DNA of 47,512 nt from Armatimonadota bacterium (GCA_025354405.1 JANXMY010000112.1:1-47512), one strand, 5' to 3'. Shown: positions 7,270 to 22,108, counted from the first letter of the stretch. Notes: generated by a model not told the origin, from the letters alone. Numbers and translations are program-made.

Positions 7270-8319
7270 TTAATGCTTCGCGTAGATCTGATCAAAGATG
7301 CCACCCTCGGCGAAGTGCACCTTCTGGGCGTCCGACAAACTCCCGAAGACTGACTGTGCCGTGAACAGAGTGATGGCGGGAAACTGACTCTGGTACTTAT
7401 CGGCAACGGCCTTCAGCCGTGGCCGGTAAAAGTCCTTGGCGCCAATCTCCTGGCCTTCTGGGGAGGCGAGGTAAGCTAGGTAGGCTGTCGCCACTTCGCG
7501 CGTGTTGTGGGCGTCGACATTCTTATCTACCACCGCGACCGGAGGCTCGGCGAGAATGCTCACGGACGGATAGACGATATCAAATTTGCCCGCTCCGCCA
7601 TTGCGGCTCACGGCCAGTTTCGCTTCGTTTTCCCAGGCCACGAGGACATCACCGACATTGCGCTGGGTAAAAGTCACCGTCGAGCCGCGCGCTCCCGTGT
7701 CGAGAATCGGGACGTTTTTGTAGAGCGACGAAACATAGGCCTTCGCTTTATCCGGGGTGCCTCCGGGAAGCTTTAGAGCATAACCCCAAGCGGCCAGATA
7801 GTTCCAGCGTCCGCCACTGGAGGATTTCGGATTCGGTGTCACGACTTGAACACCCGGCTTGACCAGGTCAGACCAATCTTTGATGCCTTTCGGATTCCCG
7901 TGACGCACCAGAAACACCACAGTGGAGGTGTACGGTGCGCTTCCATTCGGCAGGCGATCGGCCCAGTCTGCATGTACCAGCCCAGCTTTGGCCAGCACAT
8001 TGATGTCTGTGGCGATCCCGAGTGTGACAACATCGGCGGCTAGACCGTCTTTGACCGCCCGGGCCTGTTTGCCGGAGCCGCCATGCGACTGCTGGATCGT
8101 GACCGTCTGTCCGGTCTTCGTCAGCCAGTATTTCGCGAACGCCGTATTATAATCCTGGTAGAATTCGCGTGTCGGGTCATACGAGACATTCAGCAAAGTC
8201 ACGGATCCGGCGGCACCCGACGACGGCTTGTCGGCGGATTTCTGCGGGGAACATCCAGCAAGAACGACCATCGAAGCGGTCAAAAGGGCGGCAGCAGTGC
8301 GTGACGAAATCAATTTCAT
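7270..8319 (-). CDS. sbp: sulfate-binding protein, lipoprotein (Sbp)
   Basis: 349 residues, extracytoplasmic solute-binding component of the sulfate transporter. The N-terminus is a lipoprotein signal with lipobox VLAGC, so the mature protein is membrane-anchored rather than freely periplasmic. Family signatures include [57 protein letters not shown] and [22 protein letters not shown]. The frame is open 48 codons upstream, but ATG 8319 is preceded by AAGGAG with 5-nt spacing and starts a proper signal peptide. It leads the cys operon, so substrate assignment rests on both sequence and context. Confidence 0.95.
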
Positions 8320-8391
8320 AAAATCTCCTTGAGGATACCTGTGATTGTCCAGAAAAGCAAGTGCGAAGGTTGCCAATGGGACATGAAAAAC

Positions 8392-8420: not shown

Positions 8421-8755
8421 TAAACAAACTTGCAAATATATTTCGCGCATAGATAAAATTCACAGGTTAGAAATCTGAGGATGGGGAGTGCTCACCGTCG
8501 AAGCGACGTTAAGATTGGGGCAGTGGCTTTCTGTTTATCTCTTGCGTCCCCTGGATGCTGGCCTTTCACTTGTATTTGTCGATAAAGCCGCGGATTTCTA
8601 ATCCGTGGCTTTTGGTGAAATAATTACGCTTCCCTCAGGCCTTGCTGCATAAATATTCCCCCCCCATCCTCGCCTGGGGCCTCGCCTGCGCGGCATTGAT
8701 AGCCTGATTTGCGATATTTCCGCAATTCGAGAAGGGACATGAAGATGCACCACGT
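8421..8755. other. non-coding region between sbp promoter and DUF4349 remnant
   Basis: No convincing ORF. It holds one palindrome at 8586-8610 (AGCCGCGGATT TCT AATCCGTGGCT), a member of the short GGATTTC-AATCC family also seen at 27222-27240, 27405-27425, 41776-41800 and 41890-41910. No recognisable riboswitch was seen. Confidence 0.5.
8586..8610. repeat. short GGATTTC/AATCC palindrome
   Basis: Arms AGCCGCGGATT and AATCCGTGGCT around a 3-nt loop. It is not placed immediately after any gene, so a terminator role is not obvious. Confidence 0.6.
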
Positions 8756-9922: not shown

Positions 9923-10708
9923 ATGCCCGCGTACTCAGCCACAGCCATTGTTTTGCAGCGACGGCACTTCAGCGAGACTGACAATATCCTGACGCTCTAC
10001 TCCCCGGAGATCGGACGCTTTTCGGCCATTGCCAAAGGCGCACGAAAGCCGATCTCGCGGCTCTCCGGGGCGACTGAGCTGCTGACCTGCACCCGGTTCG
10101 GCCTGGCTTCGGGGAAGTCTTTGGAAATCGTAACGCAGGTGGAGGTGCTGGAGTCATTCCCTGCACTGCGGCATGAATTGCCCCGACTGGCGCACGGCCT
10201 GTATCTGGCGGATCTGCTGAATCATTCCGTGGAAGACCACGCTCCAAGCCCGGAGCTATTTGAACTATTACGGTCGGGGCTGAGGCAGCTGGAAACGCTT
10301 TCGCCACCGGAGCTTGCCGCACGGTGGTTCGAAGTGCAGCTGCTGGGCGACCTGGGGTATGCACCCAATCTCTTCGAATGCAGTATCTGCCGCGCACCGG
10401 TGCCCGGGGAGTTTGCACGAGAAGAAAGGTTCGCGCTTTCCATTACGCAGGGAGGGGTTCTTTGCCCGGTCCATGCACGGCCCGAGACGAATGAGGATCA
10501 CAGCGCACTCGGCACGGGGGCACTCCGGCTGCTGCAAACGCTGGAGGCGCTTGGCCTAGGCGGCAGCGCAGCCCTTGCGGCTTTGCCCGCTGCCGGCCCG
10601 CGCAGCCTGGATCAGGCCCGGCTGGCCTTGCGGCGTTCCCTTCGAGTCCATTTGGAGCGGGACATGAAAAGCCTGGAATTTCTGGACAGCCTGCGAAACT
10701 CGGTCTAA
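9923..10708 (+). CDS. recO: DNA repair protein RecO
   Basis: 261 residues, normal for RecO, which loads RecA with RecR and anneals single strands. The N-terminal OB fold begins AYSATAIVLQRRHFSETD and includes GRFSAIAKGARKP. The helical C-terminal domain carries a zinc site C153-C156-C181-H184 (CSIC, CPVH). ATG 9923 gives the conserved N-terminus; the 48 codons open upstream are repeat sequence. It is convergent with the glycosyltransferase gene, with which its end overlaps by 4 bp. Confidence 0.93.
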   Translation: MPAYSATAIVLQRRHFSETDNILTLYSPEIGRFSAIAKGARKPISRLSGATELLTCTRFGLASGKSLEIVTQVEVLESFPALRHELPRLAHGLYLADLLNHSVEDHAPSPELFELLRSGLRQLETLSPPELAARWFEVQLLGDLGYAPNLFECSICRAPVPGEFAREERFALSITQGGVLCPVHARPETNEDHSALGTGALRLLQTLEALGLGGSAALAALPAAGPRSLDQARLALRRSLRVHLERDMKSLEFLDSLRNSV

Positions 10709-11409
10709 CGCTTCGAAAGTATCACGCGCGCCACATCTCGAAACTGCCTCGCCCGATGGCGAACACTCGCCCAGTCCCCCCCGGTGACATGGTGGCGAAA
10801 CTCGGTTTCGACTTCCCGAACGCGAAAGCCTGCCTGGAGTGTCCGAATGGTCAAATCGACTTCCACCCCAAATCCCGAAGCGAACGTACCCCCGAGAGCC
10901 TCCAAGACTTCGCGCCGCAGGGCACGCTGACCGGAGAGCGGCTGCGTAAAGGTCTCCCCGGTGCAGCGAAGAATCCCCTGGCGGGCAAGACGCACCACAA
11001 ACCCGCGCCCGCCTGACTGCCCGGTTTCCTCGAATACCGGATCGGGTGGCAGCAGGCCGACGGTCATGTCAGCCTCACCGGTCTGAATCAGCGGCAGGAG
11101 TTTGATCGCCTCACCAGCGGAAGCCCCAAGATCGGCATCGAGCAGGAGGAAAATACCGGCATGGCCCTTCGAAGCGGCATACGCAGCTGTGAGCGCCGCG
11201 CCTTTGCCGCCATTGGGGACGGTCAGTATCTGTGTCGCTCCGGCAGACCGGGCGAGCTGCGCTGTGCCGTCGGAGGAGCCATCGTCAGCCACGATGACTT
11301 CATCGATCTCGGGCCGGGCACAAAGGGCGGCAATCGTCGTGCCGATTCGCGGTGCTTCGTTGTAAGCGGGAATGAGAACACAGACTTTTTCGCGGCGGAG
11401 ACTGCTCAT
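10705..11409 (-). CDS. family 2 glycosyltransferase
   Basis: 234 residues, a soluble GT-A enzyme of the GT2 family. Signatures are LIPAYNEAPRIG near the N-terminus, VADDGSSDGTAQLA (from about 40), NGGKGAALTAAYAA, and the metal-binding LLLDADLG (about 87-94). No membrane anchor is seen. It is last in an operon with steA and the MctB-like gene; its start overlaps the upstream gene's end by 4 bp (ATGA). The acceptor is unknown; the location suggests an envelope glycan or lipid substrate, which is inference only. Confidence 0.85.
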   Translation of the reverse strand: MSSLRREKVCVLIPAYNEAPRIGTTIAALCARPEIDEVIVADDGSSDGTAQLARSAGATQILTVPNGGKGAALTAAYAASKGHAGIFLLLDADLGASAGEAIKLLPLIQTGEADMTVGLLPPDPVFEETGQSGGRGFVVRLARQGILRCTGETFTQPLSGQRALRREVLEALGGTFASGFGVEVDLTIRTLQAGFRVREVETEFRHHVTGGDWASVRHRARQFRDVARVILSKR

Positions 11410-12284
11410 GGACCGGGACTACCTCCGGAAGTGGAGGGAAGCTGCTGATGTGCGGTCAGCTTCAGCCCATAGTCACCAAAGTCGCCGCGCAGGGCGAAGG
11501 GGAGAGCAATTTGGCCCAGGGGTAAGTCGATACAGTCTACTGTGGAGATCCCGGCGGCCTGGAAGGTCGGTATCGAAGAGGCGGCCACCGTGTAAGGCTC
11601 GCAGCCGACGACGGTGACAGGTCCCGGGACTGCCTTGAAACCCTCCAGAAGCGGCCCCTCGACTGCGGTCGGCACACCGTCTTCCCGGCTGCCGCCGACG
11701 ATCACAAAGAAACCGCATGGATCGGATAGCTCTCCGGAAACAGTAATCAGCCCCTGCTCCTGAATGTCCTGAATTGTCGATGCAGAAACCGAGCCTGAGG
11801 CACCACCGCTGGCGAGGGCAAGAATGAGAGCCGCCGAGAGTGCTTTGTCCTGCTCCGCCGGGTCAGCGCTGCCGGCAATACTCTGCAGCGCCCGCCGCTG
11901 CCGAGGCAGGAGCAGGCCCCACTTGGGAGTCAAAGTAACAATCGCCCCAACGACTCCCCCAGCGTCGCCAATCGCCGTGTTCGCCGCTTCGGTGGCATCC
12001 GCATAATCGCCGGTCTGGACCAGAATAATCCGCTTGCCCGTAAGCCTGCCGCGAACGACAGCGGGGCGCAAGGCAGCCAGCGCACTTTCATCTTTATCAA
12101 GCCGTCCCTGGACTTCTCTCCGCTCCTGAACCACGGTGTTGGTTTGTACCAGCAAAGAGTCGAACGCCTTACGCTGCTGGCGCACCTGCACCGGGCCGTA
12201 ATACGAAGCCCCGATCAAAATACCGAAGCTCAGCATGAGAAAGATCGCGATGAGATAAAAAAGGTGATAGCGAGCATCTAACAT
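11406..12284 (-). CDS. MctB/SteB-like membrane-anchored coiled-coil protein
   Basis: 292 residues. It begins with the family-typical MLDARYHLFYLIAIFLMLS and a single membrane segment ending GILIGASYYGP. A coiled-coil stretch (about 33-70, QQRKAFDSLLVQTNTVVQE) and an extracytoplasmic alpha/beta domain follow. This is the DUF3186 family, named copper transporter MctB in mycobacteria and SteB in corynebacteria, where it pairs with SteA at the division septum. Its position directly after steA favours the SteB-type role. Copper transport is not supported by any visible metal-site motif. Confidence 0.82.
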   Translation of the reverse strand: MLDARYHLFYLIAIFLMLSFGILIGASYYGPVQVRQQRKAFDSLLVQTNTVVQERREVQGRLDKDESALAALRPAVVRGRLTGKRIILVQTGDYADATEAANTAIGDAGGVVGAIVTLTPKWGLLLPRQRRALQSIAGSADPAEQDKALSAALILALASGGASGSVSASTIQDIQEQGLITVSGELSDPCGFFVIVGGSREDGVPTAVEGPLLEGFKAVPGPVTVVGCEPYTVAASSIPTFQAAGISTVDCIDLPLGQIALPFALRGDFGDYGLKLTAHQQLPSTSGGSPGP

Positions 12285-12320
12285 AAATTGGCTTTAATAG
12301 ACTTGAATCAGAAACCGGCT

Positions 12321-13484
12321 TCAGTGAATATGAAGGCGCCACCAGATACGGACGAGCGCGACCAGATTTTCCCACATCGGCGAGAAATGCAGCAGAAGGA
12401 GAATCGCCAGCAGAAACGAGAGTAACAGACCAACAAGTGCAGAAAACGGTGGATTTGGCTGATACAGCTTGAAAACGCCGCGAGCATCCACCAGACGTGG
12501 GCCAACTTTCAGGCGCACCAGATAGGTGCTCGCCATGCCCGCGCGGCCCTTGTCGAGAAAATCTTCCAGATTGGAGTGTGTCCCGACGGCTACGATCAGA
12601 TCCGCTCCGTGCTCGTAGGCCAGCAGCAGGGCGGCGTCCTCACTGGTCCCCGGCACAGCGAAGGTATCGGCCGTCAATCCAAGGGCGTGAACTCGTTCCA
12701 GCCCAGGTGCATCACCGTTCTTATAGGCGTGAACGATCAGCTGTGCGCCGCAGCGAAGGGCCTCATCGGAAACACTGTCCATGTCGCCCAGAATGATATC
12801 CGGACGGCGTCCTAATGCCAGCACTGCGTCGGCTCCCCCGTCCACGGCGATCAAAACAGGCCGCACACCATCCATGTAGTTACGTAGAAGGGCCAGATCG
12901 TCTTTGTACCCCTCCCCGCGCACGACCACCAGGGCATGCCTCCCAGAAAGCTTTAATTTTCGGAGCGCGGGGACATTCGTCGGGTCCAGCAGTAAATCTT
13001 TCTCAGAATCCAGATATTGAAGCGTGTTGCGGGCAAACTTCTCCAGCTCCGACCCGAGATTCGCCCGCGCGAACGCTGTTTCCTGCGCCACACGAAGAGT
13101 GTCCCAGCGAGTCAGCCCGTCGGTCAGTTTATCGTCCTGATAGATGCCCCAGACATCGTCGATGATCAGATGCGACCCATCGCGAAACCGGCTGAAATGC
13201 GTCGGGTCCGAAAGCTGATACAGGGGAATCTGCGCCGCTTCCAGCACTGCCGGACCGCGGTTAGGATATTTGCCACTGATAAAAGGCTGGGCATTCACAA
13301 CCGCACACACCTGGGAGTCGGCCAGAGACTGTGCAGCCAACCCGTCCAGGTCTGCATGGTCGATCACGGCAATGTCACCCGGTCTCAGCCGCTTGACGAG
13401 CGATTTCGTTCGCCGCCCGCAGCGCGCCGTCCCTGCGAGGCGGTTTAATGACGTCGACTGAGAGTCGACACGAACAGTCGCCAC
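12321..13484 (-). CDS. steA: SteA-like cytokinetic-ring protein
   Basis: 387 residues. The N-terminal third has GDIAVIDHADLDGLAAQSL (about 36-54) and ISGKYPNRGP (about 69-78), the family hallmarks. The middle resembles thiamin pyrophosphokinase, with AVDGGADAVLALGRRPDIIL followed by GDMDS. A single C-terminal membrane segment (about 350-371) precedes a short tail. The start is GTG 13484 after AGGAG. In Actinobacteria SteA and SteB influence cell separation; the same gene order here argues for a conserved envelope or division function. The enzymatic competence of the kinase-like domain is unknown. Confidence 0.85.
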   Translation of the reverse strand: MATVRVDSQSTSLNRLAGTARCGRRTKSLVKRLRPGDIAVIDHADLDGLAAQSLADSQVCAVVNAQPFISGKYPNRGPAVLEAAQIPLYQLSDPTHFSRFRDGSHLIIDDVWGIYQDDKLTDGLTRWDTLRVAQETAFARANLGSELEKFARNTLQYLDSEKDLLLDPTNVPALRKLKLSGRHALVVVRGEGYKDDLALLRNYMDGVRPVLIAVDGGADAVLALGRRPDIILGDMDSVSDEALRCGAQLIVHAYKNGDAPGLERVHALGLTADTFAVPGTSEDAALLLAYEHGADLIVAVGTHSNLEDFLDKGRAGMASTYLVRLKVGPRLVDARGVFKLYQPNPPFSALVGLLLSFLLAILLLLHFSPMWENLVALVRIWWRLHIH

Positions 13485-13579: not shown

Positions 13580-14347
13580 ATGGAACTTTTTGATACCCAT
13601 TGTCACCTGAATCATCTCGATTTCGATTCCGACCGCGAAGAAGCAAGGCAGCGGGCACGCGAAGCGGGAGTAACACGACTCCTCTGCATCGGTTTCGATC
13701 TGGCAAGCAGCCGAAGTGCCATTCAATTGTCGATCTGGGAAGAGATGCAGGCGGCAATCGGTATCCATCCCGAATCCGCAGAAGAATGGACCCTAGAGGC
13801 CGCCGCGACGCTCCGCCAATTGTATAACACGGGCAAGGCAGCAGCTTACGGAGAGATCGGTCTGGATTTTCACTGGGACAGCGTCCCACGAGCACGCCAA
13901 TCGGAAGTGTTTCAAGAGCAGATTGCCTTTGCTGCGACACTCTCCCCCACCCTGCCGCTGATCATTCACACTCGGGATGCTCTCGCCGAGACGCTGGCCG
14001 TCCTGGAAGCCTCTGCGACAAAGGCTCCCATCGTCATGCACTGCTTCACCGGAGACGTCCAAGAGGCCGCTGCCTGTCTCGACGCGGGATGCTATTTAGG
14101 CATCGGCGGAGTTGCGACGTTCAAAAAATCAGAAGATGTCCGCGCGGCGATAGCCTACGCTCCGCTGGAGAGGTTATTGCTGGAAACCGACTGTCCCTAT
14201 TTGGCCCCGCAATACAAGCGAGGACGCCGCAACGAGCCTTCGTACCTGCCGGCTATTGCGGAGATCGTCGCAACCGCAAAGGGACTGACGGTGCAGGAAA
14301 TCGCAGAGGCGACCACGGAGACGGCGCGGGGAATCTTTGGTTTTTAG
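13580..14347 (+). CDS. tatD: TatD-family metal-dependent hydrolase (DNase)
   Basis: 255 residues, normal size. Metal-binding motifs are FDTHCHL (4-10), GEIGLDFHW, IIHTRDA, MHCFTG and ETDCPYLAPQ followed by KRGRRNEPSYL. Members are 3'-5' DNases with possible RNA or D-aminoacyl-tRNA activity. ATG 13580 is chosen because it begins at the conserved N-terminus; 13 upstream codons are also open. A TTGACA lies at 13541-13546, but the nearest -10-like boxes are 21-23 bp away, so the promoter is unclear. Its end overlaps the convergent membrane-protein gene. Confidence 0.92.
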   Translation: MELFDTHCHLNHLDFDSDREEARQRAREAGVTRLLCIGFDLASSRSAIQLSIWEEMQAAIGIHPESAEEWTLEAAATLRQLYNTGKAAAYGEIGLDFHWDSVPRARQSEVFQEQIAFAATLSPTLPLIIHTRDALAETLAVLEASATKAPIVMHCFTGDVQEAAACLDAGCYLGIGGVATFKKSEDVRAAIAYAPLERLLLETDCPYLAPQYKRGRRNEPSYLPAIAEIVATAKGLTVQEIAEATTETARGIFGF

Positions 14348-14955
14348 GAGGCATCGATACGCTGCACCACCAGGCATTCCAGAACCGCCCCAATTCCTGC
14401 GGCCAATGCCAGAAGTACCAGCAGCCAGCCTGCATAGGGCAGCAGGGCAGCCAGCAGCAGCGTGACCAGACCTAGCTTCAGGCCCGGCAGGAAGCCGGGC
14501 TCGCCCGTTTCAGCGACTTCGGCGATCCGGGTTCCCAGCCAGAGCGCAGCGGCGCCCAGTCCAAGACTTGCCGCCACTAGTCCGAAACTTAGCACGACAA
14601 CTCCCAGCAGGGCCAATATTTTGGTGGAAATCAGCAGTGCTGCGGCCACAACGCAGACAATCGCGGCGGCGATGCCCCAGAGTGTCGGAATGAGCCGCCG
14701 CCCTTCCAGGCGCGCGGCAGACCGTTCGACCAGCTGCAGGCAAGTATCTATGCGCTGAAAGAGTGCCGCCAGCAAGACCACGGATGCCAAAACGGAGAAG
14801 AGAATCAGCAGAATGGCGGGGCCGCTGAAAAACAGTTGAACTGGATAATATTGGCTGTGATTTATGACAGGCTCCCTTTCAGGCGTGACTGCACAGCCCG
14901 CGTATAAAATAATAAATTCAGCAGGCAAGCTCCCGCCAGCAGGCTCGCGGTCCAA
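14344..14955 (-). CDS. multi-pass membrane protein, last gene of the sigma-factor operon
   Basis: Up to 203 residues with about four hydrophobic segments: one near LFFSGPAILLILFSVLA, a pair in the middle and one near LLAALLPYAGWLLVLLALA. The start is uncertain. The longest frame begins with TTG 14955 and overlaps the anti-sigma gene by 94 bp. The first membrane segment begins only after the anti-sigma stop, and no ATG is available, so a later non-ATG start is possible. The C-terminal half (RIAEVAET..., LLPYAGW) resembles the C-terminal half of the 18777-19286 protein. No function can be assigned. Confidence 0.65.
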   Translation of the reverse strand: MDREPAGGSLPAEFIILYAGCAVTPEREPVINHSQYYPVQLFFSGPAILLILFSVLASVVLLAALFQRIDTCLQLVERSAARLEGRRLIPTLWGIAAAIVCVVAAALLISTKILALLGVVVLSFGLVAASLGLGAAALWLGTRIAEVAETGEPGFLPGLKLGLVTLLLAALLPYAGWLLVLLALAAGIGAVLECLVVQRIDAS

Positions 14956-15410
14956 AGAGGCGAGGCAAACGAAACATGCTGGGCAGAATTCCAGATCGTG
15001 ACCGTCTCAGCGGGAACCATCCGTCCGGTGAGGAGAAACCATTCAGGCAGAGCATTTGCCGCGCCCCCAAGATTGGGCAGAGTCGGCCAGAGCGTATGCG
15101 GAATCAGCGCCAGGCAGGCGACACTAGCCGCCGCGGCCGAAAGTGGGAGCCAGAGTGATGAGCGCGTCTGGCGGGGAGCCTCGGCGATCCGGGCCAGTAG
15201 CTGTGCCGCGAAAACGTCGCCAGGCAGGTCCGTGAGCTCCGCCTGCGGAACCCAGTGGTGCCCCAGCCGCGTCAGCTGCCGGTATTCTTCGCTGACCTGC
15301 CGGCAGGCGGCGCAGCCCAACAAATGTCTGTCCAGAAGATCGCGCTCGGGACAAGAAAGCGCACCGTCAATAGCGCCAAGGATAAGTTGTTCGGCAGCTC
15401 GGCAGTTCAT
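14862..15410 (-). CDS. zinc-finger anti-sigma factor (transmembrane)
   Basis: 182 residues. The N-terminal cytosolic part is a zf-HC2-type anti-sigma domain: C3 and the HxxxCxxC motif H29-C33-C36 (RHLLGCAACRQ). Two hydrophobic segments follow, about 105-127 and 150-172. It overlaps the sigma gene by 4 bp (ATGA), the usual arrangement for a sigma/anti-sigma pair, so it is inferred to hold the sigma factor inactive at the membrane. The sensed signal is unknown. Confidence 0.82.
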   Translation of the reverse strand: MNCRAAEQLILGAIDGALSCPERDLLDRHLLGCAACRQVSEEYRQLTRLGHHWVPQAELTDLPGDVFAAQLLARIAEAPRQTRSSLWLPLSAAAASVACLALIPHTLWPTLPNLGGAANALPEWFLLTGRMVPAETVTIWNSAQHVSFASPLWTASLLAGACLLNLLFYTRAVQSRLKGSLS

Positions 15411-16036
15411 GGTGTAAGATACTCCGCAAGAGCCGTCCGCAGCTCGGCACGGGCACGAAACAGATGTGTTTTCACCGTCCCCAGCGGCAGACCGGTCGCG
15501 GCGGCAATTTCGTCGTACGAAAGATCGTCCAAATGCCGCAGCACGAAGACAACGCGCAGCTTGGGAGGCAGAGCGGCCACGGCGGCTTGTAAACGCGCTT
15601 CATTTTCGGTGGAAAGCAGAAGTTCTTCCGGACCATTCCCAAAAGTTTTCGGCTCCGAAAGGCTGCTGATCTCAATGGTGACCGGTCGCCGGGAGAGTGC
15701 TCGCAGTCGATCTAGACACCGGTTGACAGCGATCTTATAAAGCCAGGGGCGAAACGGCTCCCCTTTCCGAAAAGACGTGCGCTTGGCATAGGCTGCCACA
15801 AAGGCTTCCTGGGCCATGTCTTCGGCCTCATCCGAGCTGCTGCCTGGAAGCATCCTTCGGGCTAGGGCGACGAGGCGCCCCCGGTAGCGTATCACCAGCA
15901 TGGAAAACGCGGCGACATCCCCGGACGACCGGACGCGCTCTGCCAGGGATTCGTCTTCGGAACCATCGCTCACAGATTCATCCCTGCTGCCAGCTCTATA
16001 TTGAAAAAGCCTCGGAGGGAGGACGAGTTCAGCCAT
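15407..16036 (-). CDS. ECF RNA polymerase sigma factor
   Basis: 209 residues. Sigma region 2 lies about 40-105 (FSMLVIRYRGRLVALARRML, then EDMAQEAFVAAYAKR, PFRPWLYKIAVNRCLDRLR). Region 4 lies about 150-205 (LPPKLRVVFVLRHLDDLSYDE, then GLPLGTVKTHLFRARAELR). Regions 1.1 and 3 are absent, as in ECF factors. Its start lies inside the last codons of the DUF1501 gene (8-bp overlap), so it is translated as part of the DUF1800-DUF1501 operon. The target promoters are unknown; autoregulation from upstream of 19286 is a reasonable guess. Confidence 0.9.
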   Translation of the reverse strand: MAELVLPPRLFQYRAGSRDESVSDGSEDESLAERVRSSGDVAAFSMLVIRYRGRLVALARRMLPGSSSDEAEDMAQEAFVAAYAKRTSFRKGEPFRPWLYKIAVNRCLDRLRALSRRPVTIEISSLSEPKTFGNGPEELLLSTENEARLQAAVAALPPKLRVVFVLRHLDDLSYDEIAAATGLPLGTVKTHLFRARAELRTALAEYLTP

Positions 16037-17291
16037 GCACGACTCCCGGTGAATTGAATTCCAGGCCGGGAAATATCTGCCCAGTATTCGGGTTTTTCAG
16101 CCGCATAGATATCACTTCCGCCAGCACGTTCCGGTAATCAGTCGTCACTTTAAGGTCTCCCGGCCCGTCCAGATTCTCCGGCTTGAGTCCCGGCCACAAT
16201 CCATGCACTTTGCCGCCCACAACACTTTTTCCGCCAAGCAGGAGCATGGCCCCGCCACGTCCGTGGTCCGTTCCCAGCCCGCTGTTTTCGGCGACGCGCC
16301 GCCCAAATTCAGACTGCACCACGACCGTCGTTCGCCCCCAGCGCTCCGGGCCAAGATCGGCAGCGAATGCTGCCAGGCTCTTTCCGAGACTCTCCAGGCG
16401 CCCTGCAAGTATACCCTCGCTTGTCCCCTGTGCAACATGCGTATCATATCCGCCTTGGTCCAGACAGGCCGCTTCCAGACCGACTTCACTTTGAATTAAT
16501 TGAGCGACCTGCCGCAGTCCGTTCCCCAGATCATCTGCGGGATAGATCGTTTTTTGCAGCATCAGGGCCGGGGACGGCAGACGGTTGAGTGTCCTAAGCA
16601 CCAAAAGTGCCTCCTGCCCCGCTTCCGCCAGGGCATCTCGCGTGTAAAGATGGTGCAATGAGTCTTCAAATCGCCCCGATCCACTTCCAAAGGGCGACTG
16701 CAGCCTCAGGTCCGCCAGTGTCGTCAGAGCGGTAGCACGGCTTGCACCGCGCAGGGACTGTGGCAGAATCGTCCCGAGTGAAACGGCACGCAGCGGCGAC
16801 ACGTTATGCCAGGGCGCCGTCTCCAGGTGACGCGCCAGCCAGCCACTGGCCGGACCAGTGTCCGACGACACGCCCCGCTCCATTGTTGCCATCGCCTCGA
16901 AATGTGAGCGTGTCTGGTCCCCGGAGCCGCAGGCATGAGTTATGGAAAGCTGCCCGGCGGCATACAGCGGCTTGAGAGCTGCGAGGGCCGGGTGCAGGCC
17001 GAAGTACCCATCCAGATCCAGCACGCGGTTCTTCATAGCAAGCCGCGTGTCCCCAGGTCGGCCCAGAGCGATCGTTGGGCGGTTTCGGTAATAGGCATCG
17101 TCGGCATGCGGAACGATCATACTGAGGCCGTCGACGCCCCCGCGCAGGAAGATTGAAACGAGGACATCTCCTGGCGGCCCCGATCTCTGCGGCGTCACCG
17201 TAACTCCCGCGAGTGCGCTGCGTGGCCCTGCTGTCAGAGCGAGAGCGGACAGAGTGCCCAGTGCAAATAATCCGCGACGTGTGGTCAGCAT
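16029..17291 (-). CDS. DUF1501 protein, Tat-exported
   Basis: 420 residues. The N-terminus is a twin-arginine signal (TTRRGLFALGTLSALALTA). The body shows family blocks VLVSIFLRGGVDGLSMIVPH, YFGLHPALAALKPLYAAGQL, a QTRSHFEA segment, GYDTHVAQG and TTVVVQSEFGRRVAENSG with DHGRGGAMLLLGG. These resemble the alkaline-phosphatase/sulfatase-like fold. The biochemical role of the family is not established. It lies 22 bp after the DUF1800 gene; such pairs are common and the products are thought to act together outside the cytoplasm. Confidence 0.88.
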   Translation of the reverse strand: MLTTRRGLFALGTLSALALTAGPRSALAGVTVTPQRSGPPGDVLVSIFLRGGVDGLSMIVPHADDAYYRNRPTIALGRPGDTRLAMKNRVLDLDGYFGLHPALAALKPLYAAGQLSITHACGSGDQTRSHFEAMATMERGVSSDTGPASGWLARHLETAPWHNVSPLRAVSLGTILPQSLRGASRATALTTLADLRLQSPFGSGSGRFEDSLHHLYTRDALAEAGQEALLVLRTLNRLPSPALMLQKTIYPADDLGNGLRQVAQLIQSEVGLEAACLDQGGYDTHVAQGTSEGILAGRLESLGKSLAAFAADLGPERWGRTTVVVQSEFGRRVAENSGLGTDHGRGGAMLLLGGKSVVGGKVHGLWPGLKPENLDGPGDLKVTTDYRNVLAEVISMRLKNPNTGQIFPGLEFNSPGVVHG

Positions 17292-17313
17292 TCTATTTTC
17301 TCCCCGAATTGGA

Positions 17314-18780
17314 CTAGCGCCACTGAAAGGCGGGCGACATCAAAACAACCGCCGTGTACTCGGCCAGATCAGGATATCCATGAGCCAGTGCCCGCAGCCC
17401 GGCCAGTGCCGGGTCGGCGGAGGAACATCCGAACGCGAGTTCGAGCAGTGTGTTGTGCGGCGTCAGTGCGGCCTTCTTTCCCGCCTCAGACAAAGCCGGG
17501 AGATCAAGCCGAGTATTCTCGAGCGCATTGCCCGAAAGCGCCAGCGCGAAGTTCCAGCGCGGAATTAGTGCCCCGGTCCAGAAATGGGCGGCTTCGGGAA
17601 ACCCGTCGGGCATCGGCCAGGCAAACAGCGCTTGCCCCATCGATTCCAGATGCCCCTGTACGCTTAGGCTTCCATCCGTGTCAGCGTTTAAAGCACGCAG
17701 GCCACTGACGGTAAAGTCCAGGGGCCGCTTCAAAATCGGCTTCGCAGTCAGCAGATCGTCCGAGGTCAGCAGCGCCAGCAGCATGGGCTTGATGTCGCCG
17801 TCCGAGTCACGGAATATCTTTGCCAGACGCTTAGTCCAGCGGTCAGACGCCTCGCCGAGAAAGTGAACACACAGCTTACGCGCCAAATGCCCTGCCGTCG
17901 CCGGATGAGATGCCAGAACGTCCAAAACGCGCTCCCCATCGTGGACGCCCCCGCCTGCCGGAATTGAGATTCCTAAAACTCGCTTTGGGCCATTGTCATG
18001 TGCTTCAGGGTCGAAACGGAACCGGCCCCGATGCCAGTGATTTTCGAATGTCCAGCCGGAGAAGCACCGGGCGACTTCCTTGACATCCCGCTGCGTGTAG
18101 CCGCCGTGGACGCCGAGCGTGTGCAGTTCCATCAGCTCCCGGGCATAGTTTTCGTTGGGAATACCTTTCCGGTTCGCCGTGTTGTCCAGATAGCCCAGCA
18201 TCGCCGCCGACCGTGCCGAGGCTCCCAGCAAATCGCGAAATTTGCCAAGGGCGTGGCTGCGGATCGTCGCGTGGTCATCCACCACTTTAAGCTGCGGGCC
18301 CAGCCCTTTGAACGCATAGATATTGAAATGATCCGTCCAGAACTCAACCATGCGCTCCGACAGCTGCTTCCGACTATAGACCGCCCGCAGCAAGGTTACC
18401 TGCCGCAGTGCCTCGACGACCCGATGATCGTCTTCATCGAAAAGCGTGCCGGTATCGGGATTCAGCGTGTCGGTCAGGCTTCGAACTCGAAGGGTGAGAA
18501 TTGGCTCCTCCGTAAGCGCCTCCGGTGCCAGCTGCTCGGCGACATAGGCCGGGATGCCGATGCTCATCACATGCGCGAGATCCCCGGGACGCGGCCCGTA
18601 AGCGGCCCGGTTCAGCACACGAGCTGCGGGCGAATGGAACGGCAGATTCGGGGGCGGCAGCGCATTTCCGGGAAGCCTGGCCTGTGTCAAGCGCTGTTCG
18701 AGAGTTTCGCAGCCAGAGAGCAGGGTTGCGGTCAGCCCTGCCGCACCGAGAGCCAGCAGTTGACGTCGCGAGGCTATCAT
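17314..18780 (-). CDS. DUF1800 protein, probable Tat lipoprotein
   Basis: 488 residues. The signal SRRQLLALGAAGLTATLLSGC combines a twin-arginine motif with a lipobox. Family blocks are LNRAAYGPRPGDLAHV, ERMVEFWTDHFNIY, GYLDNTANRKGIPNENYARE, ELMELHTLGVHGGYTQRDV and ARCFSGWTF. The start overlaps the stop of the upstream membrane-protein gene (ATGA). The function is unknown; it is co-transcribed with DUF1501 and the sigma/anti-sigma genes. A 439-codon frame on the opposite strand is not considered real. Confidence 0.88.
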   Translation of the reverse strand: MIASRRQLLALGAAGLTATLLSGCETLEQRLTQARLPGNALPPPNLPFHSPAARVLNRAAYGPRPGDLAHVMSIGIPAYVAEQLAPEALTEEPILTLRVRSLTDTLNPDTGTLFDEDDHRVVEALRQVTLLRAVYSRKQLSERMVEFWTDHFNIYAFKGLGPQLKVVDDHATIRSHALGKFRDLLGASARSAAMLGYLDNTANRKGIPNENYARELMELHTLGVHGGYTQRDVKEVARCFSGWTFENHWHRGRFRFDPEAHDNGPKRVLGISIPAGGGVHDGERVLDVLASHPATAGHLARKLCVHFLGEASDRWTKRLAKIFRDSDGDIKPMLLALLTSDDLLTAKPILKRPLDFTVSGLRALNADTDGSLSVQGHLESMGQALFAWPMPDGFPEAAHFWTGALIPRWNFALALSGNALENTRLDLPALSEAGKKAALTPHNTLLELAFGCSSADPALAGLRALAHGYPDLAEYTAVVLMSPAFQWR

Positions 18781-19286
18781 GACACTCCCTCCAGCACGTA
18801 TATGGCTTTCTTCGCTCTGTGCAATGCGCTGAGGCCGCAGCCGACAGAAAGCAGCAGGGCGGCGGGAAGGAAGAAGAACCAGCCCAGAACCGGCAGGAAG
18901 CCGGCTGAGACATACAGAACGGAGGCACGGGTCAGGCTGCCAAACGCAGTGAGTGACGACCCCAGATCGTCAATCCGGCTCGCGACCAGCCGTACAATCG
19001 CGGCACTGCCCAGTGTGGACAGCAGGCCAAGCACGCCCAGGAGCACGGCCCCTAACAGCTTGAGCGGGCCCGGAGCGAAGGTGATTAACAAGAATGCCGG
19101 AAACCCGCCTACCAGCAATGCGACTGTACCAGCCCCGGCACAGCGGCCCGGTGCAGTCGTGAGACAAGTCTCCGCCCGTGCCACAGGCCGGGGAAATGCC
19201 AGCGCGATCAGCAAAATTGCCGCGGCCCAAGAAGCGCCGACGATAAAAACGACGGCCAGCACGGCTAAAACATCTCCAAAGGTCAT
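18777..19286 (-). CDS. multi-pass membrane protein, first gene of the sigma-factor operon
   Basis: 169 residues with about four hydrophobic segments (about 5-32, 52-70, 73-95, 125-150). The C-terminal part, RASVLYVSAGFLPVLGWFFF, resembles the corresponding part of the 14344-14955 product, so the operon may be bracketed by distant paralogues. The start ATG 19286 follows AAAGGA. No family name is recognised. Its coupling to the DUF1800 gene suggests a shared envelope function. Confidence 0.75.
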   Translation of the reverse strand: MTFGDVLAVLAVVFIVGASWAAAILLIALAFPRPVARAETCLTTAPGRCAGAGTVALLVGGFPAFLLITFAPGPLKLLGAVLLGVLGLLSTLGSAAIVRLVASRIDDLGSSLTAFGSLTRASVLYVSAGFLPVLGWFFFLPAALLLSVGCGLSALHRAKKAIYVLEGVS

Positions 19287-19341
19287 GGCGTCGGTCCTTT
19301 CGCGTGAGTGTCAATAAAGACAGTACGCCGCTTTAACAGAT

Positions 19342-19368
19342 AAGTTTCAACCAGGCGCAATGGAACTT
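19342..19368. promoter_or_regulatory. divergent ECF-like -35 motifs between the sigma operon and the DsbD-N gene
   Basis: The plus strand has GGAACTT at 19362-19368, and the minus strand has GAAACTT at 19348-19342. Both resemble the AAC-containing -35 element used by ECF sigma factors. A convincing -10 partner was not found on either side, so this is a weak call. Confidence 0.25.
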
Positions 19369-19397: not shown

Positions 19398-19892
19398 ATG
19401 ATCACTGCCAAACACACACTCTTATTTTCGCTCGCTTCCGTGCCCTTTCTCGGCACACACCCCGCACTGGCGCAGTTCGGTGGCCCGAAGGTGGCAGCAG
19501 TCACCTCAGCCGTTCGGCAGACCGTCGTGGCACGCGGCGGGGAAGGCATGCTCAGCGTGACACTCAATGTCGGGACGCAGTACCACATCAACGCACATCG
19601 ACCAAACGATCCGGCGTATATTCCGACAAACTTTGTGGCCCAGCCATCACCCGGGATCACCTATGGCGTCGTACATTATCCGGTGCCGAGAACGGTGCGT
19701 GTCTCCTATTCGACAAAGCCACTTTTAGTGTACGTCGGTAAAGTCGTGATCTCCATCCCCTTTAAGGTCTCTCGATCGGCCAAACCCGGGGCTGCGGCTC
19801 TGGCCGGCACTGTCATGTACCAGGGCTGTAATGACAAGTCATGCTATCCTCCTGCCTCCATGCCGGTTCGGGCCGTGGTCACCATCAAATGA
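19398..19892 (+). CDS. secreted DsbD N-terminal-domain-like protein
   Basis: 164 residues with a signal peptide ending THPALAQ. The mature part is a single immunoglobulin-like domain with MYQGCNDKSCYPP near the end (C144, C149), the Cys pair pattern of the DsbD alpha domain. It probably receives electrons from or delivers them to a periplasmic thiol partner. It overlaps dsbD by 4 bp (ATGA). The same domain is repeated at the start of the downstream DsbD, so this may be a specialised second shuttle domain. Confidence 0.8.
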   Translation: MITAKHTLLFSLASVPFLGTHPALAQFGGPKVAAVTSAVRQTVVARGGEGMLSVTLNVGTQYHINAHRPNDPAYIPTNFVAQPSPGITYGVVHYPVPRTVRVSYSTKPLLVYVGKVVISIPFKVSRSAKPGAAALAGTVMYQGCNDKSCYPPASMPVRAVVTIK

Positions 19893-22108
19893 AATATTTT
19901 TCGCCCGTTCTCTTATGTCTAACGCTGCTTTTGCTGATGGTCGGTACACAGGCGGGAACTCCGCTTCCAGTCCACTTTACCGCCTCCGTGAGTCCGAGTC
20001 CGGCCCATCCCGGCGAAGCCGTCACGGTGCAGGTCAAAGTGGCGGTGGACCCCGGATGGCACGTGTACTCCGTAGTTCCCGCCGAAAACGGCCCGGCGGC
20101 GACTGAAATCGTATCACTGTCGGGGTCAAAGGCTTTAGGGCCGACGACGGAGGACGCACCGGTCAGCAAATTCGATCCTAACTTTGGGCGTCAGGTCGCG
20201 TTTCACGAAGGCTCGGCAGAGTTTCAGCGGAAGTTTAAAGTGGGTGCGGTCGCCGGGCAGTCGGTCGCCGTGCATTATCAGACCTGCAACGACAAAATCT
20301 GCCTGCCCCCAACAGATGTCATTCTCCCGGTCAGTTATTCGTTGGCAGCCGGTCCGGTGCGGGAAGAGTACAAATCTCAGAGGGGAGACGCGCCAGGCAG
20401 CGCCCCCATAGGCCTGTTCTTATTTCTCGCGGCGGCGCTTGGGGCCGGACTGCTGGCACTGGCAACTCCCTGTGTCTTTCCCCTGATTCCGATTACCCTG
20501 ACGAATTTCGTCAAGCAGGCGAACGGGGACAAGAAAAAGCTGGTTCGGCTCTCGGGTGGGTACGCCCTGGGGATTGTCGCTTTGTATTTAGCGCTCGGCG
20601 CGATTGCTACGGCGACGTTCGGGGCGGCGGGGATCAACAAAGTCGCCGCAAACCCGTGGGTAAATGTCGGCATTTTTGCGGTGTTCGTCGTGTTCGCCCT
20701 GTCATTCTTCGAAACCATTCAGATTCAATTTCCGGCAAACCTCAGCGCACTTCAGACTACAGCCCGGGCACACAGCGGGACATTAGGATTGGTGCTGCTG
20801 GGGATTACGTTCGTGCTGGCTTCATTCACCTGTACTGCACCGCTGATTGGGACATTGCTGGTGGCCGCCTCCCAGGGAGAACGACTGCGGCCCCTGCTGG
20901 GAACACTGGTCTTTTCCCTGGCATTCGTATCGCCGTTTTTGATCTTTGCGGCATTTCCGCAGTGGATATCGAAGATCCCTAAGAGTGGAGTCTGGCTGGC
21001 ACGGGTCAAGGCAACACTGGGGTTTTTAGAGCTGGCTGCGGCACTTAAGTTTCTCTCTAATGCCGATCAGGTGTGGCAATGGAAGCTGCTGACTCAGCCG
21101 GTGCTGCTGGCTGCTTGGGCGGTGATTTTCGTCTGTGCGGGGCTCTATCTGTGGGGAACGTTTCGCTTTGGGATTGTGGCGGAGACCGAGGCTCCAGGGG
21201 CGAAAGTCCCCCCACCCCGCGCCGCGTTCGCTGCACTTTTCTTCTTTGCTGCGCTTTACTGCTTCTGGGGGTTATCCGGACGACCTCTCAGCCCCTATGT
21301 CGGGGCGTTCCTGCCTCCAGAGGGCTACGGCGGGGGTTCGGAGGCGAAAGTCGCCGGGCTTCCCTGGCTCACGGATTACGATACCGCACTTGCCCAGGCA
21401 AAGGCTGAAAACAAACCGCTGCTGATCGATTTCACCGGGTACACCTGCACAAACTGCCGACTGAACGAGAAGAATGTCTTCCCGCGCCCAGAAGTTCAAA
21501 CCGCCCTGGGCAATTACGTCCGAGTCCAGCTTTACACCGACGGTGGCAAAGATGGCCCGAAGAACCAGAGATTGGAACAGGACAAGTTTGGCGATGTCGC
21601 CCTTCCACTTTACGGCATTATCGACCCCCAAACGGGAAGGCCCGTAGACAAGGTCGCCGGAGTGATCAGCCCCGGGTCATTCTCGCAGTTTCTCGCACGG
21701 CCTGCCCCGGCGGTGGCGGCGGTGGCCCCCTGGACTGCTTACAGCCCGGAGACTTTCGCCTTAGCGAAGCGCGCCGGCAAACCTATTGTGATTGACTTCA
21801 CGGCGGCCTGGTGCGTCAACTGCAAAGAGATCGCCCACGACGTCTTTGAAGCCCCCACTGTCGCTCCAACCCTCGCCCAAGATTTCGTGACCCTGCGTGC
21901 CGATCTCACAGATTGGTCCAGTCCAGCCAGCGTCGCCCTGCAGAAGCAGTACGGCTTCGGCAGCCTGCCCACTGTGGTGCTACTGAATGCGTCGGGCGTG
22001 GAATTTAAGCCGCTGCGCATCACCGGACGCCTGCCTATTGTCGATTTTCAAGGACGTCTGATCAAAGCCCGCACCGACGAAGCGGCTGTCGCTGCCTTGC
22101 CTCGGTGA
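19889..22108 (+). CDS. dsbD: thiol:disulfide interchange protein DsbD with two C-terminal thioredoxin domains
   Basis: 739 residues from ATG 19889. Order: signal peptide; N-terminal alpha domain with CNDKIC (C133, C138); about eight membrane segments with the buried redox cysteines C195 (ATPCVFPLIPIT) and C315 (FTCTAPLIG); then two thioredoxin-like domains. The first has YTCTNCR (C520, C523), the second AWCVNCK (C642, C645). DsbD moves electrons from cytosolic thioredoxin to exported proteins. Normal DsbD has one gamma domain, so the second thioredoxin module is unusual. The frame is open 16 codons upstream, but ATG 19889 begins the signal peptide. Confidence 0.9.
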   Translation: MKYFSPVLLCLTLLLLMVGTQAGTPLPVHFTASVSPSPAHPGEAVTVQVKVAVDPGWHVYSVVPAENGPAATEIVSLSGSKALGPTTEDAPVSKFDPNFGRQVAFHEGSAEFQRKFKVGAVAGQSVAVHYQTCNDKICLPPTDVILPVSYSLAAGPVREEYKSQRGDAPGSAPIGLFLFLAAALGAGLLALATPCVFPLIPITLTNFVKQANGDKKKLVRLSGGYALGIVALYLALGAIATATFGAAGINKVAANPWVNVGIFAVFVVFALSFFETIQIQFPANLSALQTTARAHSGTLGLVLLGITFVLASFTCTAPLIGTLLVAASQGERLRPLLGTLVFSLAFVSPFLIFAAFPQWISKIPKSGVWLARVKATLGFLELAAALKFLSNADQVWQWKLLTQPVLLAAWAVIFVCAGLYLWGTFRFGIVAETEAPGAKVPPPRAAFAALFFFAALYCFWGLSGRPLSPYVGAFLPPEGYGGGSEAKVAGLPWLTDYDTALAQAKAENKPLLIDFTGYTCTNCRLNEKNVFPRPEVQTALGNYVRVQLYTDGGKDGPKNQRLEQDKFGDVALPLYGIIDPQTGRPVDKVAGVISPGSFSQFLARPAPAVAAVAPWTAYSPETFALAKRAGKPIVIDFTAAWCVNCKEIAHDVFEAPTVAPTLAQDFVTLRADLTDWSSPASVALQKQYGFGSLPTVVLLNASGVEFKPLRITGRLPIVDFQGRLIKARTDEAAVAALPR

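Follow-up and report, generated by a model that had tools for sequence, protein, structure and literature searches.

Extracytoplasmic function (ECF) sigma factors are marked by AAC/CGT promoter boxes, a co-transcribed anti-sigma factor and positive autoregulation (PMC8103513), as in the pairs of ECF sigma factor and zf-HC2 anti-sigma factor RpoE-RseA and SigW-RsiW. The consensus promoter of Bacillus subtilis SigW reads TGAAACN16,17CGTA (PMC2375139). DUF1800 and DUF1501 are common bacterial protein families without established function; the literature that we found mentions both only in passing, and reports that co-located DUF1800-DUF1501 pairs adjoin bacterial chitin synthases (PMC5122149). 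Here we analyzed a stretch of 47,512 nucleotides (the window) from the 3.6-Mb draft genome of an Armatimonadota bacterium (GCA_025354405.1, JANXMY010000112.1:1-47512), in which six minus-strand genes, running from 19286 to 14344, join both kinds of system. In order, they encode a membrane protein (MemA), a DUF1800 protein, a DUF1501 protein, an ECF sigma factor (SIG), an anti-sigma factor (ANTI) and a second membrane protein (MemB). These six genes probably constitute one positively autoregulated, ECF-controlled envelope operon made of two modules.

The SIG-ANTI pair has in common with RpoE-RseA and SigW-RsiW the sigma2 plus sigma4 architecture, the adjacent membrane anti-sigma factor with an HxxxCxxC motif, the AAC/CGT boxes and a gene order compatible with autoregulation (PMC8103513). 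Unlike in those pairs, three genes separate the putative feedback promoter from SIG, and the pair is preceded by DUF1800-DUF1501 and followed by a MemA-like membrane protein. The operon likewise shares with DUF1800-DUF1501 pairs in general both families, their usual order and their twin-arginine signals, but it differs from them in being led by MemA, in its ECF-type promoter and in carrying the sigma/anti-sigma genes inside the operon. While ECF pairs with their autoregulation are a known kind of system, as are DUF1800-DUF1501 pairs, we found no description of the joined operon, of ECF-type promoters at DUF1800 operons or of the MemA/MemB family in the openly searchable literature (subscription literature lay outside the search).

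The conservation of the gene order was surveyed in the source genome (G000) and 60 relatives, 61 genomes altogether. Seven of these belong to the window's family, and five of the seven (G000, G001, G002, G004 and G006) have the complete six-gene order; these five are all of the family genomes that carry this DUF1800, and the remaining two, G003 and G005, are without MemA and SIG. An earlier note on this DNA had raised the question of whether the adjacency might be confined to this genome. The operon instead recurs with tight overlaps in five species of three genera, which, on comparison of the sequences, is beyond chance. Outside the window's family, the conserved core is MemA-DUF1800-DUF1501, usually without a neighboring sigma gene. 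In a further set of 76 MemA loci, obtained from a search of 255 genomes of the phylum, DUF1800 directly follows MemA in 74 and a same-strand DUF1501 is present in 72, while any ECF gene lies within the fetched stretch in only two. An ECF/anti-sigma pair conserved beside DUF1800/DUF1501 as a general rule, as the same note had envisaged, was therefore not borne out; outside the family, besides the case of genome G029, only these two of the 76 further loci have any ECF gene nearby. Furthermore, SIG-ANTI-Mem cassettes were also found without adjoining DUF1800. Judged by these neighborhoods, the operon is composed of two modules, MemA-DUF1800-DUF1501 and SIG-ANTI-MemB, the latter a separate cassette. 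In G029, which belongs to another family (f13), both modules are united in a second arrangement, one further contiguous case (L039, 2463-9963): a sigma factor of the same clade as SIG (clade A, see below), an anti-sigma factor, a 519-aa protein and a bactofilin-like (polymer-forming/transmembrane) membrane protein lie directly ahead of a co-directional MemA-DUF1800-DUF1501. A scan of genome contigs with SIG, aimed at named relatives, gave mostly distant ECF factors of other phyla, with no DUF1800 or MemA neighbors and with only DUF1501 genes nearby, at three planctomycete loci.

We then investigated the sequences ahead of the operon. TGAAAC-N16-CGTA, equal to the SigW consensus, precedes MemA in all five family operons with identical spacing, its first base being located 60-71 nt before the MemA start codon. 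It is the sole 6+4 word (spacer of 14-19 nt) common to all five operon heads, and dinucleotide-shuffled upstream regions of G004 and G006 matched the G000/G001 pair with any 6+4 word in only 29 and 16 of 5000 shuffles, respectively. In none of the five operons did the 300 nt before SIG contain an ECF-type motif. In a tree of 43 ECF proteins, the SIG proteins of the family grouped with the Mem-linked and polymer-linked sigma factors in one clade of 16, clade A (support 95/87); in the same tree, a named Fimbriimonadaceae sigma factor paired with G043 at 100/100. Of 11 sigma genes of clade A outside these operons, 5 are preceded by AAAC-N16/17-CGTA and none by GAAC-CGTC, whereas of 23 genes of the neighboring clade B, the other large one, 11 are preceded by GAAC-N16/17-CGTC and none by AAAC-CGTA. 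Promoter type thus follows sigma clade without crossover (5:0 versus 0:11; Fisher p = 2e-4). The head promoter is of the AAAC/CGTA type, that of SIG's clade, and this agreement speaks most strongly for SIG as the driver of its own operon. The head promoter within the family and its match to the SIG clade support ECF-sigma control of DUF1800/DUF1501, which the earlier note had proposed as possible targets of a dedicated envelope response, and its suggestion of a single transcription unit agrees with the shared head promoter and with the empty 300 nt before SIG.

Similar motifs were found at other DUF1800 operons. AAC-N16-CGT[AC] occurs at 23 of 58 DUF1800-operon heads and the N17 form at eight, while the other spacings from 8 to 24 gave 0-3 each; the background at N16 was 13 of 618 other genes of the same loci, flat across spacings (Fisher p 3e-18). 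When the five sigma-bearing operons were left out, 18 heads at N16 and 8 at N17 remained among 51. DUF1800 operons across the phylum thus often appear to be ECF targets. For comparison outside the phylum we took eight plasmid loci, three of them with clear gene starts; these three clearly delimited proteobacterial DUF1800-DUF1501 pairs have neither an upstream ECF-type motif nor an annotated membrane-protein gene in MemA's place. At one plasmid locus (Ensifer adhaerens plasmid pC; L361, 2465-6164), the DUF1800-DUF1501 pair is convergent to an annotated periplasmic heavy metal sensor, a hypothetical protein and an RNA polymerase sigma factor.

Several points weigh against SIG control of its own operon and ECF control of DUF1800 operons in general. 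Clade A is unevenly sampled, with 5 exact matches in 11, and genomes within a family are not independent; because they are related, the p-values for the DUF1800 heads are too optimistic. The motif was spotted by eye in the first set of loci and its scoring used that same set, and the signal was weaker in the 76 further MemA loci (12 of 76 at N16/N17 versus a background of 18 of 425, p 6e-4), most of which belong to family f14 and largely lack an ECF-type motif. In addition, TGAAAC-N16-CGTA occurs across the genome no more often than its reversed control. The rest of the SIG regulon is therefore unreadable from the motif, and a regulon prediction on this basis was dropped.

Two other accounts of the sigma gene were considered. 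According to the first, an ECF cassette landed by chance downstream of MemA-DUF1800-DUF1501 in an ancestor of the family and is merely co-transcribed, with its targets elsewhere. The modules are indeed usually apart outside the family (any ECF gene in 2 of 76 loci), and most other occurrences of the promoter sequence are indistinguishable from chance. However, the head promoter has the exact specificity of SIG's clade with no other ECF-type motif within 300 nt of SIG, the order and the overlaps have been kept while identity has fallen to 58% for SIG and to about 30% for ANTI, and G029 joins a clade-A sigma gene, an anti-sigma gene and a polymer-forming/transmembrane gene to MemA-DUF1800-DUF1501 on the same strand. 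We thus regard a chance insertion as unlikely. Slightly less likely still is that another ECF sigma factor drives the operon in trans, SIG being its product and not its driver. Each genome has many ECF paralogues, and the window's genome has two further DUF1800-DUF1501 operons, both of which carry upstream, as read by eye, GAAC-N17-CGTC of the clade-B type, unlike the window operon, so that several ECF factors can drive such operons. Against this account, the head promoter here is of the clade-A type and the operon's own sigma factor belongs to clade A.

From gene order, conservation, domains, export signals and the match of promoter to SIG clade, we infer an autoregulated operon that would work as follows. 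ANTI, as a membrane zinc-finger anti-sigma factor, would hold SIG inactive until an envelope signal relieves it, whereupon SIG would start transcription at TGAAAC-N16-CGTA upstream of MemA. The presumed single transcript would yield MemA, the DUF1800 protein as a Tat (twin-arginine translocation) lipoprotein and the Tat-exported, alkaline-phosphatase/sulfatase-like DUF1501 protein, together with more SIG, ANTI and MemB, closing the feedback loop. The most likely partner of MemB would be ANTI, at the membrane, and that of MemA the exported pair. The promoter evidence and the sigma switch inside the operon give DUF1800 and DUF1501 a testable regulatory setting, and their function can now be asked about directly, in terms of the signal to which SIG responds and of the envelope changes that expression of the operon brings.

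We next examined SIG and ANTI themselves. SIG consists of sigma2 and sigma4 domains only (Sigma70_r2 at 47-116 and r4_2 at 148-199 of 209 aa), scores 108.5 bits against TIGR02937 (cut-off 42.9) and is 58-80% identical within the window's family. Against the NCBIfam SigW model (PRK09641), it reached 115.5 bits, below the equivalog cut-off of 209. SIG appears to be of SigW-like promoter type, sharing with B. subtilis SigW the promoter consensus, but falls short of the score expected of a SigW orthologue. ANTI, the adjacent zf-HC2 membrane protein, matches PF13490 at 29.7 bits (cut-off 22.2), and its zinc motif Hx3Cx2C (C3, H29xxxC33xxC36) has ligands that are invariant across the five genomes, while the protein as a whole has diverged to about 30% identity across the family. 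Pfam matches agree with the identities that the earlier note had assigned to DUF1800, DUF1501, the ECF sigma factor and the zinc-finger anti-sigma factor.

The likeness of the first and last membrane proteins, noticed earlier and put forward for an HMM-HMM check, was confirmed by profile-profile alignment of MemA with MemB (hhalign E 6e-9, probability 96%). Reversed sequences or alignments gave E of at least 0.04 and membrane proteins unlinked to sigma cassettes E of at least 0.07; among the other multi-helix proteins of the loci, better scores came only from the third genes of sigma/anti-sigma cassettes. MemA and MemB also match polymer-forming proteins in their membrane domain at the C-terminus (hhalign E 9e-10 to 4e-6). 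By profile comparison, the two are homologues, and both are homologous to this membrane domain of bactofilin-like polymer-forming proteins. Such proteins of the same phylum, in G029, G039 and G020, follow a SIG-ANTI-type pair, as MemB does, but MemA and MemB, unlike them, lack the polymer-forming ectodomain and gave no match to Bactofilin (PF04519). We found no Pfam family for MemA, and an assignment of MemB to UbiA (PF01040) was rejected, the score being 18.6-20.9 bits versus a cut-off of 34.2, in one member of five only.

Apart from its strong hits, a MemA-profile search of the 61 genomes gave no more than four weak matches (E above 1e-16), each lying directly after an ECF sigma gene. Three of the four have a recognizable zinc-finger anti-sigma gene in between, and the fourth (G045) has a gap of the right size with no clear match. 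The larger search added four more weak hits, two after a sigma/anti-sigma pair (L274 and L277) and two not (L275 and L276). Six of the eight Mem homologues without DUF1800 are thus sigma-linked, directly after an ECF sigma/anti-sigma pair. The other two tell against a general link to sigma factors, as they have a glycosyltransferase-2 gene instead of a sigma neighbor; only about 800 bp upstream were available in the L275 contig. That MemA and MemB are unrelated and alike only through hydrophobicity, as might be suggested by their low direct identity and by the A1 profile, which picks up MemA and not MemB in the window's genome, is highly improbable given the alignment controls and these six sigma-linked homologues. 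A more tentative possibility, which we consider doubtful as it stands, is that ECF sigma/anti-sigma systems have a hitherto undescribed third component in the MemA/MemB family. This membrane module, which also occurs in fusion with polymer-forming ectodomains, would link the anti-sigma factor to an exported partner, and here it would let the cell sense the SIG-controlled DUF1800/DUF1501 pathway. The results point to an undescribed membrane-protein family recurring with ECF sigma/anti-sigma pairs.

As for the exported pair, the DUF1800 protein scored 389.9 bits against PF08811 (cut-off 26.1) and the DUF1501 protein 93.7 bits against PF07394 (cut-off 27). The DUF1800 N-terminus, MIASRRQ...LLSGC, contains a twin-arginine signal and a lipobox, both conserved in the five operons, which predicts a Tat-exported lipoprotein; the RR signal of DUF1501 is also present in its family relatives. 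Searches of PDB sequences gave no matches for either protein. The AlphaFold2 model of DUF1800 (pLDDT 94) is mostly helical and matched no PDB fold at E <= 0.001. The model of DUF1501 (pLDDT 83) gave a best Foldseek E of 2e-5 (prob 1.00), and the listed PDB fold matches are sulfatases, YejM, LtaS, BcsG and alkaline phosphatase, with TM-scores of only about 0.3-0.46. The model suggests a distant alkaline-phosphatase/sulfatase superfamily-like fold; DUF1501 also has conserved Asp/His columns. Since envelope glycans, lipids or teichoic acids are the substrates of several of these matches, an envelope-modifying role of DUF1501 or the exported pair is plausible.

Coordinates are collected in the table below. 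The positions and junctions of the six co-directional genes proved to be as previously described: an ATGA overlap between MemA and DUF1800 (18777-18780), a gap of 22 bp between DUF1800 and DUF1501, an overlap of 8 bp between DUF1501 and SIG (16029-16036) and one of 4 bp between SIG and ANTI (15407-15410), where ANTI overlaps the SIG stop. The last gene, given in the earlier note as 203 residues, had to be corrected. In relatives, the MemB start and the ANTI stop overlap by 4 bp, as ATGA in G004 and as TTGA in G002 and G006, and the same junction reads ATAA in G001 and in the window (14862-14865); MemB is therefore most likely the 173-aa protein of 14865-14344 with a rare ATA start. The 203-aa open reading frame with a TTG start at 14955 was rejected as about 90 bp over-extended relative to these start sites.

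Table. Features of the six-gene operon in the window, and related sites on other contigs (contig or locus handle given)
Feature	Position	Strand	Remark
ECF-type promoter TGAAAC-N16-CGTA (TGAAACTTATCTGTTAAAGCGGCGTA)	19324..19349	minus	3' end 37 nt ahead of MemA start codon
MemA, 169 aa, membrane protein, about four hydrophobic segments	18777..19286	minus	ahead of DUF1800 phylum-wide
DUF1800 protein, 488 aa, predicted Tat-exported lipoprotein	17314..18780	minus	PF08811 E 2e-116
DUF1501 protein, 420 aa, twin-arginine signal	16029..17291	minus	PF07394 E 2e-26
SIG, ECF sigma factor, 209 aa	15407..16036	minus	Sigma70_r2 + r4_2
ANTI, anti-sigma factor, 182 aa, two hydrophobic segments	14862..15410	minus	zf-HC2 PF13490 E 7e-7
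MemB, 173-aa multi-helix membrane protein, MemA homologue	14344..14865	minus	probable ATA start in ANTI stop (ATAA)
GAAC-N17-CGTC sites	G000:C181 (L054 ~8590-8640); G000:C185 (L055 ~8280-8330)
Mem homologues, then (or running into) glycosyltransferase-2 sequence	L275 806-2182; L276 4811-6139

A scan for sigma-70 promoters and terminators gave nothing exceeding shuffled sequences. On the plus strand (19398-22108), genes for a DsbD_N protein and a DsbD-like thiol:disulfide interchange protein diverge from the operon and start 112 nt from MemA, and the intergenic region with the ECF-type promoter is therefore common to both. On the other side, beyond a convergent tatD, genes for a SteA-like_C/TPK protein, an MctB protein and a glycosyltransferase-2 form a same-strand group on the minus strand (10705-13484).

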